Shown here piece after piece: positions 18,510-37,179 of a stretch of 64,000 nucleotides of DNA (positions are counted from its first letter, which is position 1; every line of letters begins with the position of its first letter). The DNA is from Leisingera sp. M658 (lineage in GTDB: Bacteria; Pseudomonadota; Alphaproteobacteria; Rhodobacterales; Rhodobacteraceae), in the NCBI RefSeq assembly GCF_025144145.1, contig NZ_CP083546.1, positions 695,001 through 759,000 on the forward strand. The letters are read 5' to 3'. The notes beneath the pieces are model-generated. The model made no database searches. It was not told where the DNA came from and worked only from the letters and a program-made list of their open reading frames with translations. The translations under genes were made by a program, and so were the position numbers.

Positions 18510-19703
18510 TCAGCCCTTCACGGCCTTTACGATTTTCTCGGCGCCGTCTTTCAGGTTGTCGGCGGCGATCACGTCGAGGCCGGAGGTGTTGATGATCTCC
18601 TTGCCTTTTTCGACGTTGGTGCCTTCCAGGCGGACCACCAGCGGCACCTTCAGGCCGACTTCCTTGACTGCGGCAACCACGCCCTCGGCGATGACGTCGC
18701 AGCGCATGATGCCGCCGAAGATGTTGACCAGGATGCCTTTGACCTGCGGGTCCGAGGTGATGATCTTGAACGCCTCGGTCACTTTCTCCTTGGTTGCGCC
18801 GCCGCCCACGTCGAGGAAGTTGGCAGGCTCGGCACCATAGAGCTTGATGATGTCCATGGTGGCCATCGCCAGGCCGGCGCCGTTCACCATGCAGCCGATC
18901 TCGCCATCCAGCGCGATATAGTTCAGGTCGTACTTCGAGGCTTCCAGCTCTTTCGGGTCTTCTTCGGTGGTGTCGCGCAGCTCGGCCACGTCGGCGTGGC
19001 GGTAGACCGCGTTGCCGTCAAAGCCGACCTTGGCGTCCAGCACCTTGAGGCTGCCGTCGTCCGCCACGATCAGCGGGTTGATCTCCAGCATCTCCATGTC
19101 TTTATCGACGAAAGCTTTGTAGAGCTGGCCCATCAGTTTGACGCATTGCTTGACCTGCGCGCCTTCCAGGCCGAGCGAGAAGGCGATGCGGCGGCCGTGG
19201 TAGGCCTGGTAGCCGGTGGCCGGGTCAACGGAGAAGGACAGGATCTTTTCCGGGGTGGCGGCGGCCACTTCCTCGATGTCCATGCCGCCCTCGGTGGAGC
19301 AGACAAAGGAGATGCGCGAAGTCTGGCGGTCAACCAGCAGCGCCAGGTACAGCTCGGTCTGGATGCCGGAGCCGGCCTCGATATAGATACGGTTCACCTG
19401 CTTGCCGGCGGGGCCGGTCTGATGGGTCACCAGGGTGCGGCCCAGCATCTTCTTGGCTTCCTCGGCGGCTTCCTCAACCGATTTGGTCAGGCGCACGCCG
19501 CCCTTTTCACCGGCGTCGGCCTCCTTGAAGGAGCCCTTGCCGCGGCCGCCTGCGTGGATCTGCGCCTTCACCACCCAGAGCGGGCCGTCAAGTTCACCTG
19601 CGGCGGTTTTGGCGTCTTCGGCTTTCAGCACCACTTTGCCGTCTGACACCGGAGCACCGTAGCTGCGAAGGAGGGCTTTGGCCTGATATTCGTGGATGTT
19701 CAT
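18510..19703 (-). CDS. sucC: Succinyl-CoA synthetase, beta subunit
   Basis: ATP-grasp subunit of succinyl-CoA synthetase, paired with SucD. The 397 residues start [19 protein letters not shown], exactly the family N-terminus, so the in-frame ATG 13 codons upstream is rejected. Visible motifs are the ATP-grasp [11 protein letters not shown] segment, [25 protein letters not shown] and NFLDVGGGA. It is the first gene of the suc run; its 5' region carries two GTGATCAC palindromes about 115-145 bases upstream of the start. Confidence 0.97.
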
Positions 19704-19812
19704 CTGAAACTGTCCCGTCTGGCTGCAATTGTCTGGCTTCAATAGGCCGTCTTAAAGCCAAGTGTTAAAGGCTTTTTTGACAGGGTGCGGGGAAATGATG
19801 AAGATTTTCGAG

Positions 19813-19848
19813 TTTTGTGATCACGGTTTTTGGGGGTGTGATCACAAA
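19813..19848. promoter_or_regulatory. Paired GTGATCAC palindromes upstream of sucC
   Basis: Two copies of the self-complementary octamer GTGATCAC occur at 19817-19824 and 19838-19845. Each has T-rich or A-rich outer flanks (TTTT before the first, AAAT after the second), and their centres are 21 bp apart. The same doublet, with 20-bp spacing, stands before sdhC. This is the only intergenic DNA between the mdh terminator and sucC, so it is probably a regulator site for the suc operon. The protein is not identified. Confidence 0.65.
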
Positions 19849-22304: not shown

Positions 22305-22585
22305 CTCGTTTTACCCTTTCCGGAACGGCCGGACAGAGCCGGGTGCCTGACGGCAGCCCCCGGTATCCCTGTGCGGGCCGGTGTGTAACGCAATTCGAAA
22401 TGCAGGCCCCATGCCTGCGGGCATCAGGTGCGGCCTGGGGCGGCGGCAGGGGTCCTGTGCCTTGGTATCTATCAGTTTGGCAATCAGGTGCTGATAAGTG
22501 GTTAACCCTGCGGGCGCTTGAAAATCACTAAATGTATCAGCATCTTGCTGCATGCGCGGAGAAGGTTACGCTGCGCTGCGGCGGA

Positions 22586-22607
22586 ATTGTACTTGAAAGT
22601 ATACAAT
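22586..22607. promoter_or_regulatory. Candidate operator upstream of mcl2
   Basis: ATTGTA (22586-22591) and TACAAT (22602-22607) form a dyad with a 10-base spacer, about 50-70 bases before the mcl2 ATG. The right arm reads GTATACAAT, resembling half of operators used by GntR-type regulators. The rest of the 350-base gap between the secreted-protein gene and mcl2 shows no gene. Confidence 0.35.
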
Positions 22608-22654
22608 CGAATCTGTACCGCTTTACGCAACAAAATAACTTTTGGAGAGCCTTG

Positions 22655-23509
22655 ATGGACCCGCGCACGCGCCCGTACCGTTCGGTTTTGTACATTCCCG
22701 GCTCCAAGCCGCGTGCACTGGAGAAGGCCAGAACCCTGCCGGTGGACGCGGTGATCTTTGATCTGGAAGACGCGGTGTCGGTGGATGAAAAACCCAATGC
22801 CCGCGCGACCTTGACCCAGGCGCTGGAGACGGGCGGCTTTGGCGCCCGGATGAAGATCGTGCGGATCAACGGGCTGGATACGCCGTGGGGGCGTGAGGAT
22901 GCGAAAGCGGCGGCACAGATGGATTGCGACGCGATTCTGCTGCCCAAGGTAAATGCGCCTGCGGATCTGGATGCGCTGGCGGAGATCACCGGGGATATTC
23001 CGCTGTGGGCGATGATGGAAACCCCGCGCGGCATGCTGAATGCCGCTGCCATCGCGGCGCACCCCAAGCTGCAGGGCATGGTGATGGGCACCAATGATCT
23101 GGCCAAGGAATTGCAGACCCGTTTCCGCCCCGACCGGCTGCCGATGATGGCGGGGCTGGGCCTGTGCCTGCTGGCCGCCAAGGCCGAGGGGCTGGTGATC
23201 GTCGACGGGGTCTATAACGCTTTTAAGGATGTTGAGGGGCTGTCGGCGGAATGTGCGCAGGGCCGCGACATGGGATTTGACGGCAAGACCCTGATCCATC
23301 CGGCGCAGGTGGAGGTTGCCAATGCTGCCTTTGCCCCGACCGAGCGCGAGGCCGAGACCGCCCGCCGCCAGATCGCCGCATTTGATGAGGCGCAAGCCGC
23401 AGGCCAGGGTGTTGCCGTGGTCGATGGCAGGATAGTCGAGAACCTGCATGTGGTTACGGCGCGTGAAATCCTGGCAAAAGCGGATGCAATCGCCGCGCTT
23501 TCGGCCTAG
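22655..23509 (+). CDS. mcl2: (3S)-malyl-CoA thioesterase (HpcH/HpaI family)
   Basis: A 284-residue citrate-lyase-beta-like protein. It has SVLYIPGSKPRALEKA, the metal-site segment VIFDLEDAV, KIVRINGLDTPWG, the METPRG motif and GKTLIHPAQVE. In the ethylmalonyl-CoA pathway two paralogues exist: malyl-CoA/beta-methylmalyl-CoA lyase (Mcl1, longer) and (3S)-malyl-CoA thioesterase (Mcl2), which releases malate. The shorter length and the position beside mch and the suc/mdh genes, as recalled for Rhodobacter sphaeroides, favour Mcl2. GGAGAG precedes the ATG; the 41-codon upstream extension is rejected. Confidence 0.85.
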   Translation: MDPRTRPYRSVLYIPGSKPRALEKARTLPVDAVIFDLEDAVSVDEKPNARATLTQALETGGFGARMKIVRINGLDTPWGREDAKAAAQMDCDAILLPKVNAPADLDALAEITGDIPLWAMMETPRGMLNAAAIAAHPKLQGMVMGTNDLAKELQTRFRPDRLPMMAGLGLCLLAAKAEGLVIVDGVYNAFKDVEGLSAECAQGRDMGFDGKTLIHPAQVEVANAAFAPTEREAETARRQIAAFDEAQAAGQGVAVVDGRIVENLHVVTAREILAKADAIAALSA

Positions 23510-23543
23510 CTGTTGTCCCGGCTGACAGCATTTGGAGACTGAT

Positions 23544-24092
23544 ATGGCGTTACTGATCCTTGGCATCCTGTTGTGGTGGGGCGGCCACCTGTTCAAACGG
23601 CTGGCACCGGAGGCGCGCGCGTCCATGGGCAACGGCGGCCGCGGTGTGGTTGCGCTGGTGCTGGTTGCCGGCGTGGTGCTGATGGTGCTGGGCTACCGCA
23701 GCATGGAGTTCATCCCCGTCTGGGCGCCGCCGTCCTTCATGGTGCATATCAACAACCTGCTGGTCTTGATCGCCATCTGGATGATGAGTCCGGCGCCAAA
23801 GAAAGGCGCGCTGCTGAACGGCATGCGCCACCCGATGCTGGCGGGCTTCAAGCTTTGGGCTGCAGCGCATCTGCTGGTCAATGGCGACCTGGCGTCGATC
23901 ATCCTGTTCGGCGGTCTGCTGGCCTGGGCAGTGGCTGAGGTGATCGTGATCAACCGTTCCGAACCGGACTGGCAGCCGGGCCCCAAGGGCTCCATCGCCA
24001 AGGACGGGATGTTCTTTGCCGCTTCGATTGTTCTGATGGGGGTGATCGGCTACGTCCACGCAATGGTCGGGCCTTCGCCCTTTCCGGGATAG
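23544..24092 (+). CDS. NnrU family membrane protein
   Basis: A 182-residue integral membrane protein with about five helices. It opens MALLILGILLWWGGHLFKRLAP, the NnrU signature region, and contains GMRHPMLAGFKLWAAAHLLVNGDLASIILFGGLLAWA by position, in which two histidines may face the membrane. NnrU is named for a nitrite/nitric-oxide-related locus but its biochemistry is not established; related NnrU/isoprenoid-isomerase proteins suggest haem or lipid chemistry. GGAG lies seven bases before the ATG. It sits between two EMC-pathway genes. Confidence 0.82.
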   Translation: MALLILGILLWWGGHLFKRLAPEARASMGNGGRGVVALVLVAGVVLMVLGYRSMEFIPVWAPPSFMVHINNLLVLIAIWMMSPAPKKGALLNGMRHPMLAGFKLWAAAHLLVNGDLASIILFGGLLAWAVAEVIVINRSEPDWQPGPKGSIAKDGMFFAASIVLMGVIGYVHAMVGPSPFPG

Positions 24093-24114
24093 GGGCTTTG
24101 CTGGGTAGGATGCT

Positions 24115-24318
24115 ATGAAACTTTACCGTTTTTTGTCCGAGGACGACACTTCTGCCTTTTGCCACAAGGTCACGCAAGCGCTGAACAAGGGCTGGGAGCT
24201 GCACGGCAGCCCGACCCAGGCTTTTGATCCCGTGAAGGGGATCATGCGCTGCGGCCAGGCGGTGGTGAAAGAGGCGGACGGGACCTACACCCCTGAGACC
24301 AAACTGGGAGAACACTGA
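24115..24318 (+). CDS. DUF1737 domain protein
   Basis: A 67-residue protein, MKLYRFLSEDDTSAFCHKVTQALNKGWELHGSPTQ onward by position, matching DUF1737, a short strand-helix-strand domain centred on the KGWELHGSP motif. Function is unknown. Its stop shares one base with the mch start, so it is translationally coupled to mesaconyl-CoA hydratase; that pairing is the only clue to its role. Confidence 0.8.
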   Translation: MKLYRFLSEDDTSAFCHKVTQALNKGWELHGSPTQAFDPVKGIMRCGQAVVKEADGTYTPETKLGEH

Positions 24319-25364
24319 TGGCCAAGACCAGTCCGGCCAAAACCAATCCGGGACGCTTTTTCGAAGACTATACCGTTGGCGAGGTGATCCGCCATGCGGT
24401 GCCGCGCACGGTGTCGGGCGGCGAGCGGGCGCTGTATCACGCGCTTTATCCGGCGCGCCATGCGCTGTATTCTTCGGATGAATTTGCCCGGGCCTCTGGT
24501 CTGCCGTCGGCGCCGCTGGATGATCTGGCGGCCTTCCATGTGGTGTTCGGCAAGACGGTGCCGGACATTTCACTGAATGCGCTGGCGAATCTTGGCTATG
24601 CCGAGGGACGCTGGCTGCTGCCGGTCTATCCTGGCGACACCTTGCGCTCGGAATCCGAAGTGATCGGCCTCAAGCAGAACTCCAATGGCAAATCCGGTGT
24701 GGTCTATGTGCGCACCCGCGGGTTGAACCAGCGCGATGACTGCGTGATGGAGTATGTGCGGTGGGTAATGGTTCGCAAGGGCGATCCGGATGCCCCGGCG
24801 CCGGAGACGGTGATCCCGGAATTGAACAAGGTGATCCCGGCGGACCAGCTGGTGATCCCGGCCGGGCTGGACTTCAGCAACTACGATTTCACCCTGGCGG
24901 GCGAGCCGCACCGCTGGGGCGACTATGCGGTGGGCGAGACCATTGACCATGTGGATGGCGTCACCATCGAGGAAGCCGAACATATGATGGCGACCCGCCT
25001 GTGGCAGAACACCGCCAAGGTGCATTTTGACAATACTGCCCGTCCCGATGGCACCCGGCTGATCTATGGCGGTCATGTGATTTCAATGGCGCGCGCGCTG
25101 TCGTTCAACGGGCTTGCCAATGCGCAGATGATTGCGGGTCTGAACGGCGGCGCGCATGCCAATCCGTGCCTGTCGGGTCTGACCGTGCGGGCTTGGTCCG
25201 AGGTGCTGGACAAGGCGGACACAAGCGCGCCTGGCGTTGGTGCAATCCGGTTGCGGCTGGTGGCGACCAAGGGCGGCGCGCCGTTTGAGCTGAAGGGCGA
25301 GGATGGCAAATACCTGCCGGACGTGCTGCTGGATCTCGATTACTGGGCCTTGATGCCGAAGTGA
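24318..25364 (+). CDS. mch: Mesaconyl-C1-CoA hydratase (beta-methylmalyl-CoA dehydratase)
   Basis: EMC-pathway enzyme that hydrates mesaconyl-C1-CoA to beta-methylmalyl-CoA, the substrate cleaved to glyoxylate and propionyl-CoA. The 348 residues form two MaoC-like hot-dog domains: the first begins GRFFEDYTVGEVIRHAVPRTV (about 11-160), the second GDYAVGETIDHVDGVTIEEAEHMM (about 200-340). This double-hot-dog length is what is known for Mch. The adjacent mcl2 and the ccrA and ecm genes elsewhere in the window support the pathway assignment. Confidence 0.9.
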   Translation: MAKTSPAKTNPGRFFEDYTVGEVIRHAVPRTVSGGERALYHALYPARHALYSSDEFARASGLPSAPLDDLAAFHVVFGKTVPDISLNALANLGYAEGRWLLPVYPGDTLRSESEVIGLKQNSNGKSGVVYVRTRGLNQRDDCVMEYVRWVMVRKGDPDAPAPETVIPELNKVIPADQLVIPAGLDFSNYDFTLAGEPHRWGDYAVGETIDHVDGVTIEEAEHMMATRLWQNTAKVHFDNTARPDGTRLIYGGHVISMARALSFNGLANAQMIAGLNGGAHANPCLSGLTVRAWSEVLDKADTSAPGVGAIRLRLVATKGGAPFELKGEDGKYLPDVLLDLDYWALMPK

Positions 25365-33334: not shown

Positions 33335-33368
33335 TTTGTGATCACTAATTATTTGCTGTGATCACAAG
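33335..33368. promoter_or_regulatory. Paired GTGATCAC palindromes upstream of sdhC
   Basis: GTGATCAC occurs at 33338-33345 (flank TTT) and 33358-33365 (flank AAG), with centres 20 bp apart, about 120-145 bases before the sdhC ATG. It matches the doublet before sucC in sequence, spacing and distance from the start. A possible half-site, TTGTGATT, lies about 30 bases to the left. Confidence 0.65.
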
Positions 33369-33482
33369 TCGTGGCCTTTTAGCGCCAACAGAGCAATTTC
33401 CCGTGTTTTTTAACACTTCCTTCGGGTGACACGCCGTAAAAATCGGCTAAAACGTCGTCAGCCAACCTGAAAAGGAGCCAAC

Positions 33483-33866
33483 ATGGCCGATGTCAATCGG
33501 GGCAACCGCCCGCTTTCGCCGCATTTGCAGGTCTACCGGCCGCAGCTGACCTCCCTGACGTCGATCCTGACCCGGATCACCGGCAATGCGCTGATCGTCT
33601 CGGCGCTGCTGATTGCCTGGTGGTTCCTGGCCGCCGCAACCTCGCCTGAATACTTCACCATTGCCAATGGCGTGCTGACCAGCTGGTTCGGCGATCTGGT
33701 GATGACCTTGTCGGCGCTGGGCCTTTGGTATCACACACTGGCGGGTATCCGGCACCTGATCTGGGACAACGGCTATATGCTGGACCTGGACCAGGCCGAG
33801 AAGCTGGGCTGGTTTGTGATCACAGGATCAGTGATCCTGACCGTTCTGACCATTATTATCGTCTAA
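33483..33866 (+). CDS. sdhC: Succinate dehydrogenase cytochrome b556 subunit
   Basis: Membrane anchor of complex II. The 127 residues begin with the family motif RPLSPHLQVYRPQLTS and have three helices (about 30-52, 63-90 and 105-127). The haem-region histidines lie in LWYHTLAGIRHLIWD. AAGGAG precedes the ATG. It opens the sdhCDAB operon, with sdhD 17 bases downstream. Confidence 0.95.
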   Translation: MADVNRGNRPLSPHLQVYRPQLTSLTSILTRITGNALIVSALLIAWWFLAAATSPEYFTIANGVLTSWFGDLVMTLSALGLWYHTLAGIRHLIWDNGYMLDLDQAEKLGWFVITGSVILTVLTIIIV

Positions 33867-33883
33867 GCTGAAGGACACACGCG

Positions 33884-34255
33884 ATGCGATTTCTGACTGA
33901 CCGCAAGCGCGCCGTTGGCATGGGCGCTGCAAAATCCGGAACCAGCCATCATTGGGCGATGCAGGTGAGCTCGGTTGCTCTCTTGATCCTGGTGCCGCTG
34001 TTTGTCTTCACCTTCGGCTCCGCGCTGGGCGGATCTTACGAGGAGATCACCGCCTATTATTCGCGCCCGTTCCCGGCGCTTGTGGCGGCGCTGACCATCT
34101 GGGTCGGCATGATGCACTTCAAGTCCGGCGCCCAGATCATGATCGAGGACTATGTTCACGGCGTCAAAGGCCGTCTGACGATCATTCTGGTCAACTGCCT
34201 GTCTTATGTTGTCGCCGCGACCAGCGCCTATGCGTTGATCCGCCTGGCCCTGTAA
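33884..34255 (+). CDS. sdhD: Succinate dehydrogenase hydrophobic membrane anchor
   Basis: A 123-residue membrane subunit with three helices (about 25-48, 61-80 and 98-120). It starts MRFLTDRKRAVGMGAAKSGTSHHW and has the haem-ligand/quinone-site segment MHFKSGAQIMIEDYVHG. With SdhC it anchors the catalytic subunits and carries haem b. It sits in the operon between sdhC and sdhA with short gaps. Confidence 0.94.
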   Translation: MRFLTDRKRAVGMGAAKSGTSHHWAMQVSSVALLILVPLFVFTFGSALGGSYEEITAYYSRPFPALVAALTIWVGMMHFKSGAQIMIEDYVHGVKGRLTIILVNCLSYVVAATSAYALIRLAL

Positions 34256-34273
34256 TCTCCGAGGTTTCCATCA

Positions 34274-36079
34274 ATGGCTGCTTACGAATACGAAACACAT
34301 GAATATGACGTGGTCGTGGTTGGCGCCGGCGGGGCTGGCCTCCGCGCGACGCTGGGCATGGCGGAACAGGGGCTGCGCACTGCATGCGTGACCAAGGTGT
34401 TCCCGACCCGCTCCCACACCGTGGCGGCGCAGGGCGGTATTGCCGCCAGCCTGGGCAACATGGGCCCCGACAGCTGGCAGTGGCATATGTATGACACCGT
34501 CAAGGGCTCCGACTGGCTGGGCGATACCGACGCGATGGAATACCTGGCGCGCGAAGCCCCCAAGGCTGTTTACGAGCTGGAACATTATGGCGTGCCGTTC
34601 TCGCGTACTGAGGAAGGCAAGATCTACCAGCGCCCGTTCGGCGGCCACACCACTGAATTCGGCGAAGGCCCCGCCGTGCAGCGCACCTGTGCCGCGGCTG
34701 ACCGGACCGGCCACGCGATCCTGCACACGCTGTATGGCCAGTCGCTCAAGAACAACGCGGAATTCTATATCGAGTATTTCGCCATCGACCTGATCATGTC
34801 CGACGACGGGCAGTGCCAGGGCGTGGTGTGCTGGAAGCTCGATGATGGCACCATGCATATCTTCAACGCCAAGATGGTGGTGCTGGCGACCGGCGGTTAT
34901 GGCCGCGCCTATTTCTCCGCCACTTCGGCGCATACCTGTACCGGCGACGGCGGCGGCATGGTGGCGCGCGCCGGTCTGGCGCTGCAGGACATGGAGTTCG
35001 TGCAATTCCACCCGACCGGCATCTACGGCTCCGGCTGCCTGATCACCGAGGGCGCGCGCGGCGAGGGCGGCTATCTGACTAACTCCGAAGGTGAGCGGTT
35101 CATGGAGCGCTATGCGCCCCAGTACAAGGATCTGGCGCCGCGCGACTATGTCAGCCGCTCGATGACCATGGAAATCCGAGAAGGCCGCGGTGTGGGCGCC
35201 GAGGGCGACCATATCCACCTGAACCTTTCACACCTGCCGGCCGAAGCGCTGGCGGAGCGGCTGCCGGGCATTTCCGAAAGCGCTAAAATCTTTGCTGGTG
35301 TGGACGTCACCAAGGAGCCGATCCCGGTTCTGCCCACCGTGCATTACAACATGGGCGGCATCCCGACCAACTATTGGGGTGAGGTGCTGAACCCGACGGC
35401 TGACGACCCGACCGGTGTGGTGCCGGGCCTGATGGCCGTGGGCGAGGCTGGCTGCGCCTCGGTGCATGGTGCCAACCGGCTTGGCTCCAACTCGCTGATT
35501 GATCTGGTGGTCTTTGGCCGCGCCTCCGCCATCCGTGCGGGCAAGGTTGTGGACCCTGAGGCAGCAAATCCGGTGCTGAACACGGCTTCCGTTGATAAGG
35601 CATTCGACCGTTTCGATGCCTTGCGCAATGCCAAGGGCGGCATCCCGACCGCGGATCTGCGGCTGGAGATGCAGAAATGCATGCAGGCCGACGCTGCCGT
35701 GTTCCGCACTGCGGAAACCATGGCCGAAGGCGTAGAAAAGATGACCGCGATCGCCGCCAAGCTGGACGACCTGCAGGTGACCGACCGGTCGCTGGTCTGG
35801 AACTCCGACCTGATGGAAACGCTGGAGCTGACAAACCTGATGCCCAGTGCATTGGCCACCATCGTCGGCGCCGAAGCCCGCAAGGAAAGCCGCGGCGCGC
35901 ATGCGCATGAGGATTTCTCGACCCGCGACGATGAAAACTGGCGTGTCCACACCGTCTCCCGCGTGGCGGGCAACAAGGTAGAACTCAGCTACCGTCCGGT
36001 GATCACCGACCCGTTGTCGACCGAAGCCGAAGGCGGTATCAGCCTCAAGAAAATCGCGCCGAAGGCGAGGACGTTCTGA
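34274..36079 (+). CDS. sdhA: Succinate dehydrogenase flavoprotein subunit
   Basis: Oxidises succinate to fumarate using covalent FAD. The 601 residues show the dinucleotide fold [14 protein letters not shown], the FAD-linked histidine in [11 protein letters not shown] (His48), the active-site [20 protein letters not shown], and [11 protein letters not shown] near the C-terminal third. Length is normal. Its TGA shares one base with the ATG of a small secreted-protein gene, so sdhA is not directly followed by sdhB. Confidence 0.97.
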
Positions 36080-36372
36080 TGAAAAAGCTTACACTTTCTG
36101 TTGGCCTGGCAATGGCCTGCTTTACCATGCCGGCCTCGGCTAACCCGATCCTCTATGCGATGAACGAACAGCCTTATTGTTTGGAAGAGGTCGCTAATTC
36201 GGAGGTCCTTCATGTCAAAGGCCTTAAGCGTGTTGGCAACAGCGGTGTCCGCATGACGATCAAGCAGAGCAAGAGGGTCGAGGCCAAGGCCAAAGACTTC
36301 CGAACCGCAAGATCGGCCTTCACGGCCTGTATGGCGCGCAGACTCGAAGCCCATTCTGTAACGGTCGAGTAA
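36079..36372 (+). CDS. Hypothetical secreted protein between sdhA and sdhB
   Basis: A 97-residue protein with a signal peptide ([21 protein letters not shown], cleaved before NPILY). The mature part is about 75 residues, basic, with two cysteines (QPYCLEEV and FTACMAR). No family was recognised. Its ATG overlaps the sdhA stop by one base and the sdhB start lies 27 bases after its end, so it is embedded in the operon. It would reach the periplasm, whereas the Sdh catalytic head is cytoplasmic; a role in complex II is therefore not obvious. Confidence 0.75.
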   Translation: MKKLTLSVGLAMACFTMPASANPILYAMNEQPYCLEEVANSEVLHVKGLKRVGNSGVRMTIKQSKRVEAKAKDFRTARSAFTACMARRLEAHSVTVE

Positions 36373-36399
36373 TCGCCAGGGACCCGAAGGAGACAGACC

Positions 36400-37179
36400 A
36401 TGGTTCAATTCAGCCTTCCCAAGAACTCCAAGATCACCACCGGCAAGACCTGGCCCAAGCCGGACGGCGCCAGCAATGTGCGCAAGTTCAAGATCTACCG
36501 CTGGAACCCGGATGACGGCCAGAACCCGCGTGTCGATACCTATTTCCTGGACATGGACAGCTGCGGCCCGATGGTGCTGGACGCGCTGATCAAGATCAAG
36601 AACGAGATCGACCCGACGCTGACTTTCCGCCGCTCCTGCCGCGAGGGGATCTGCGGGTCGTGTGCGATGAACATCGACGGCATCAACACGCTGGCCTGCA
36701 TTTATGGCATGGATGAGATCAAGGGCGATGTGGCGATCTATCCGCTGCCGCATATGCCGGTGGTCAAGGACCTGATCCCGGACCTGACACACTTCTATGC
36801 CCAGCATGCTTCAATCATGCCTTGGCTGGAAACCAAGACCAACCGCCCCGCCAAAGAGTGGAAGCAGTCGATTGAGGACCGCAAGAAGCTGGATGGGCTT
36901 TATGAATGCGTGATGTGCGCCAGCTGCTCAACGTCCTGCCCAAGCTACTGGTGGAACGGCGACCGTTACCTTGGACCCGCAGCCCTCCTGCACGCCTACC
37001 GCTGGATCATCGACAGCCGGGATGAGGCGACGCCGGAACGTCTGGATCAGCTGGAAGACCCGTTCAAGCTCTACCGCTGCCATACCATCATGAACTGTGC
37101 CAAGACCTGCCCCAAGGGTCTGAACCCGGCCAAGGCGATTTCACATATCAAGCAAATGATGGTCGAGCGCAGCGTTTGA
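36400..37179 (+). CDS. sdhB: Succinate dehydrogenase iron-sulfur subunit
   Basis: Electron-transfer subunit with three Fe-S clusters. The 259 residues place the [2Fe-2S] ligands at Cys80, Cys85, Cys88 and Cys100 ([10 protein letters not shown]). The [4Fe-4S] ligands are at Cys170, Cys173, Cys176 and Cys237, and the [3Fe-4S] ligands at Cys180, Cys227 and Cys233. All key residues are present. GAAGGAG lies before the ATG. A rho-independent terminator stands about 60 bases after the stop and closes the operon. Confidence 0.97.

Follow-up and report, generated by a model that had tools for sequence, protein, structure and literature searches.

An octamer doublet upstream of two TCA operons

Why does the same palindromic octamer, GTGATCAC, stand twice in close succession upstream of both sucC and sdhC in Leisingera sp. 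M658, and which protein would recognise it? We addressed this question computationally in a stretch of 64,000 nucleotides (the window), in the whole 4.89 Mb genome and in the genomes of relatives. Our answer, reached by comparing sequences, is that the doublets are very probably (about 0.93) operator pairs of AkgR, whose dimers at sucC and sdhC most likely activate both operons. The features concerned are the following (coordinates in the window).

19838..19845, minus strand: predicted distal AkgR operator of the sucC promoter (GTGATCAC), conserved in the family, centre at about -109 from the inferred transcription start
19817..19824, minus strand: predicted proximal AkgR operator of the sucC promoter, centre at about -88, flanked on the outside by AAAA (sucC strand)
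19739..19769, minus strand: inferred sucC promoter (prediction), TTTAAC (19769-19764) and TATTGA (19744-19739)
18510..19703, minus strand: target gene sucC, with sucD and sucA downstream (searched by tblastn in relatives)
33338..33345, plus strand: predicted distal AkgR operator of the sdhC promoter, centre at about -118
33358..33365, plus strand: predicted proximal AkgR operator of the sdhC promoter, centre at about -98
33426..33453, plus strand: inferred sdhC promoter (prediction), GTGACA (33426-33431), 16 nt, TAAAAC (33448-33453)
33483..37179, plus strand: target operon sdhC-sdhD-sdhA-(small ORF)-sdhB, in the same order in R. sphaeroides

Upstream of sucC, the octamers occupy 19817-19824 and 19838-19845 (21 bp from start to start); the doublet (19817-19845) reads GTGATCACGGTTTTTGGGGGTGTGATCAC and lies at -142 to -114 relative to the sucC ATG at 19703 (minus strand). 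Upstream of sdhC, they occupy 33338-33345 and 33358-33365 (20 bp from start to start), and the doublet (33338-33365), which reads GTGATCACTAATTATTTGCTGTGATCAC, lies at -145 to -118 relative to the sdhC start at 33483 (plus strand). These positions and spacings exactly reproduce those of an earlier note on this DNA, which had also placed the doublets about 115-145 bases from the start codons (we found 114-145 nt) and at these two places alone in the window. Indeed, they are the only exact doublets in the whole 4.89 Mb genome (spacer of 8-20 nt). The window holds eight octamers, against 0.98 +/- 1.01 in shuffled sequences, and two doublets, against none in the shuffles; four octamers (16490, 33816, 35999 and 56843) are singles outside the doublets.

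Other candidate sites of this genome were rejected as targets. Besides sucC, 12 near-doublets (at most two mismatches, spacer of 13) were found, none of which has AT-rich outer flanks and spacer, and the single palindrome-like sites inspected elsewhere were mostly intragenic. Between the suc and sdh operons, the window also contains malyl-CoA lyase-like and MaoC-like (mesaconyl-CoA hydratase-like) genes (22532-25364), and the R. sphaeroides genome has similar genes at the corresponding place (L206).

Conservation and spacing in the family

A scan of relatives, which the earlier note had proposed as a check on conservation at sucC and sdhC, bore the doublet out. In a family sample of 296 genomes, essentially one per genus, it was found in 273 (spacer of 8-20), usually exactly twice, and the reversed-pattern control matched in a single genome out of the 296. 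In the rest of the class it is nearly absent (5 of 381 genomes match with a spacer of 11-14). Upstream regions were inspected in about 60 genomes. All the 120 doublets located less than 400 nt from a recognised sucC or sdhC start have a centre spacing of 21 bp (105) or 20 bp (15), counts which include some regions entered twice. Three genomes (G252, G122 and G170; loci L163, L175 and L182) carry a sucC triplet, with three GTGATCAC at 21+21 bp.

The aligned upstream regions have kept the octamers, the outer TTT/AAA flanks and weak promoter-like elements, and the sucC and sdhC regions have in common only the octamers and these flanks. Neither region is therefore a copy of the other. That the doublets are due to chance, or to common descent of the two upstream regions, has a vanishingly small probability: the shuffles gave none, the reversed control one, and the shared parts are limited to octamers and flanks. 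Conservation in the family relative to the control, together with the placement at sucC and sdhC, already refutes this explanation.

Third doublets, present in some genomes, were mostly discarded as chance matches with odd spacing or in unrelated or coding DNA. There are exceptions. At L058 (genome G037, 1501-1529), a 21-bp GTGATCAC doublet with an AT-rich spacer precedes fumC, which suggests that fumarase belongs to the AkgR regulon of some genera. At L097 (G263, 1501-1529), an acetyl-CoA acetyltransferase gene has a 21-bp doublet about 200 nt upstream. At L062 (G157, 1501-1529), in a stretch without sucC, the doublet lies between mdh and sucA; the predicted operator pair remains with the suc genes despite the different gene order. 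In another family, L208 (G421, 992-1020) carries a doublet of the same spacing directly before a GntR gene that is divergent from a TonB-type receptor gene; the GntR protein is about 30% identical to AkgR and is possibly a related regulator sharing the operator geometry.

Co-occurrence of the doublet with AkgR

The doublet and a strong AkgR ortholog occur together or are missing together in nearly all the 296 genomes: 270 have both, 20 have neither and 3 + 3 are discordant (Fisher p = 5e-25). In other words, the ortholog is lacking in 20 of the 23 genomes without the doublet versus 3 of the 273 that bear it. Three AkgR-positive genomes have no exact doublet: two of them carry a one-mismatch pair (GTGATCGC) at 21 bp, and sucC was undetected in the third. 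A strong ortholog is missing from three genomes that bear the doublet, all of them assemblies of more than 200 contigs. In the 18 genomes that have a detected sucC and lack both doublet and AkgR, no GTGATCAC was found within 350 nt of sucC. On the sucC tree the loss label requires about seven changes, so that the losses look repeated; a tree-corrected sign test of the co-occurrence was not significant, the independent pairs numbering two when well supported and seven on the best tree.

The candidate regulator gene and its own site

The genome encodes 14 FCD-type GntR proteins. The AkgR candidate among them (P0001, locus L015) is a protein of 217 aa encoded on the minus strand at C1:3361942-3362592, with PF00392 and PF07729 (GntR and FCD) above the cut-off. 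An octamer lies a few nucleotides upstream of its start codon, with a second one 44 bp further out, and such a start-abutting GTGATCAC was found among the 14 only at this gene. In all the 30 closest orthologs the octamer precedes the start by no more than 60 nt, mostly by 7-22 nt. It is absent at akgR of R. sphaeroides and of three other AkgR-bearing genomes tested, so autoregulation of akgR is probably lineage-specific.

Probable identity with the AkgR regulon of R. sphaeroides

Genome G046 was assigned to R. sphaeroides by a 100% match over 170 aa to the malyl-CoA lyase of PDB 4l9y, which we take to be the protein of that species. It contains exactly two doublets, both of 21 bp, upstream of sucC and sdhC, and a GntR protein 78% identical to P0001 is encoded two genes past sdhB. 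Imam et al. (mBio, 2015) reportedly named RSP_0981 AkgR and described it as an activator of TCA genes. The published loci are RSP_0974-6 for sdh, RSP_0967-6 for sucCD and RSP_0981 for the GntR gene, the last being a predicted regulator of sucCD, sdh and the alpha-ketoglutarate dehydrogenase genes (PMC4344238). The position of the G046 protein near sdhB fits these locus numbers, and we therefore equate it with RSP_0981. A literature search for the octamer together with TCA or GntR returned one relevant paper, which reports GTGATCAC among R. sphaeroides AkgR sites, citing Imam et al. 2015 (PMC6365646).

Thus, a GntR+FCD ortholog, the synteny of RSP_0981 near sdh, the exact GTGATCAC and the targets sucCD/AKG dehydrogenase and sdh were all found. 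Regulator, motif and targets are already known, and the Leisingera genome joins that regulon. The earlier note had proposed one dimeric regulator for both TCA operons and had mentioned the AkgR/CceR type as a possible one. Conservation, co-occurrence, the own-gene site, orthology and synteny with RSP_0981 and the published motif and targets support this proposal, and of the two names AkgR fits; CceR does not. CceR (RSP_1663, LacI family) is also a predicted regulator of R. sphaeroides sdh and mdh, but the doublets do not match its predicted motif, [AGT]GTT-N6-8-AAC[ACT] (PMC4344238).

Another GntR/FCD protein, or a different regulator altogether, could bind the doublets, given the 14 FCD-type proteins of the genome and the fact that at least one other GntR, from Pseudomonas and about 32% identical to AkgR, has the same GTGATCAC (PMC6365646). 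We consider this very unlikely: among the 14, only the AkgR ortholog has the start-abutting site, and its co-occurrence with the doublets and its synteny and orthology with RSP_0981 also speak for it.

Promoter geometry and mode of action

At sdhC, 37 of 52 distinct upstream regions have a GTGACW element that begins 57-60 nt beyond the doublet, with a TA-rich box about 16 nt later; further GTGACW cases lie near 48-51 and 78-79 nt, close to whole helical turns away. At sucC, a TTTAAC-like element 46-47 nt past the doublet, with a TATA-like box 25 nt on, was found in a subset of relatives. Provided that the predicted promoters are correct, transcription would start at about 19732 (minus strand) for sucC and about 33460 (plus strand) for sdhC, and the operator centres would lie at about -88 and -109 (sucC) and about -98 and -118 (sdhC).

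This geometry bears on two other explanations. The first is that AkgR bound at the doublets represses both operons rather than activating them. Many FadR-type GntR proteins are repressors, and the akgR site is placed as for a repressor. Repression at the doublets is nevertheless unlikely, as the distance of their centres from the inferred starts (about 88-118 bp upstream) and their fixed phase with the promoter are typical of activators, and AkgR is described as an activator in PMC6365646. The second is that the repeats work through RNA or DNA structure (a hairpin formed by the two octamers, or a terminator downstream of mdh) and are no binding sites for a protein. The octamers are self-complementary, and those of a doublet can pair with one another; but the repeats lie upstream of the inferred promoters, before two unrelated operons, their helical spacing is fixed and they vanish along with AkgR, which makes this extremely improbable.

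Proposed mechanism and significance

In the activation by AkgR that we favour, one GTGATCAC palindrome would be the operator of one AkgR dimer (GntR family, FCD domain). Two dimers would bind the same helix face two turns apart, probably cooperatively, with the sucC and sdhC transcription starts about 90 to 118 bp downstream. The paired AkgR would most likely activate both operons jointly, the signal being a metabolite that the FCD domain binds; alpha-ketoglutarate or a neighbour is the candidate. At the site abutting the akgR start codon, in this lineage, AkgR would repress its own gene.

Activated targets may carry pairs (sometimes triplets) of operators and most akgR genes one site beside the start, a rule which may be new; there may likewise be no earlier description of the invariant pairing at two turns or of its phase with the promoter. 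Whether an obligatory, promoter-phased operator pair (a dimer of dimers, two turns apart) separates activated targets from the self-repressing akgR operator throughout the family seems to us evenly poised.

The analysis connects what was a mere sequence pattern with a named regulator, and it points to a near-universal AkgR-type control of the oxidative TCA branch in the family, the doublet being present in about 92% of the sampled genera. Strict pairing would provide a simple rule for finding true AkgR-activated promoters, and it opens the question of how a GntR/FCD protein activates.

Comparison with known systems

The closest system is the AkgR (RSP_0981) regulon of R. sphaeroides, with an orthologous regulator (78%), the same motif and the same targets. 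It differs in that akgR adjoins sdh in R. sphaeroides, whereas it is far from the TCA cluster in the Leisingera genome, where akgR has an operator of its own that R. sphaeroides lacks. CceR shares with AkgR the predicted control of sdh, but its motif differs from the doublets. In Pseudomonas simiae, the GntR protein PS417_07240 from the deoxyribonate cluster shares about 32% identity with AkgR and has the same GTGATCAC (PMC6365646); it differs by a single site, another pathway and its gammaproteobacterial host. Finally, CRP class I/III promoters are alike in having sites on one face, upstream of -35, at helically phased distances, although the CRP motif (TGTGA-N6-TCACA) is not that of the doublets and AkgR is not of the CRP family.
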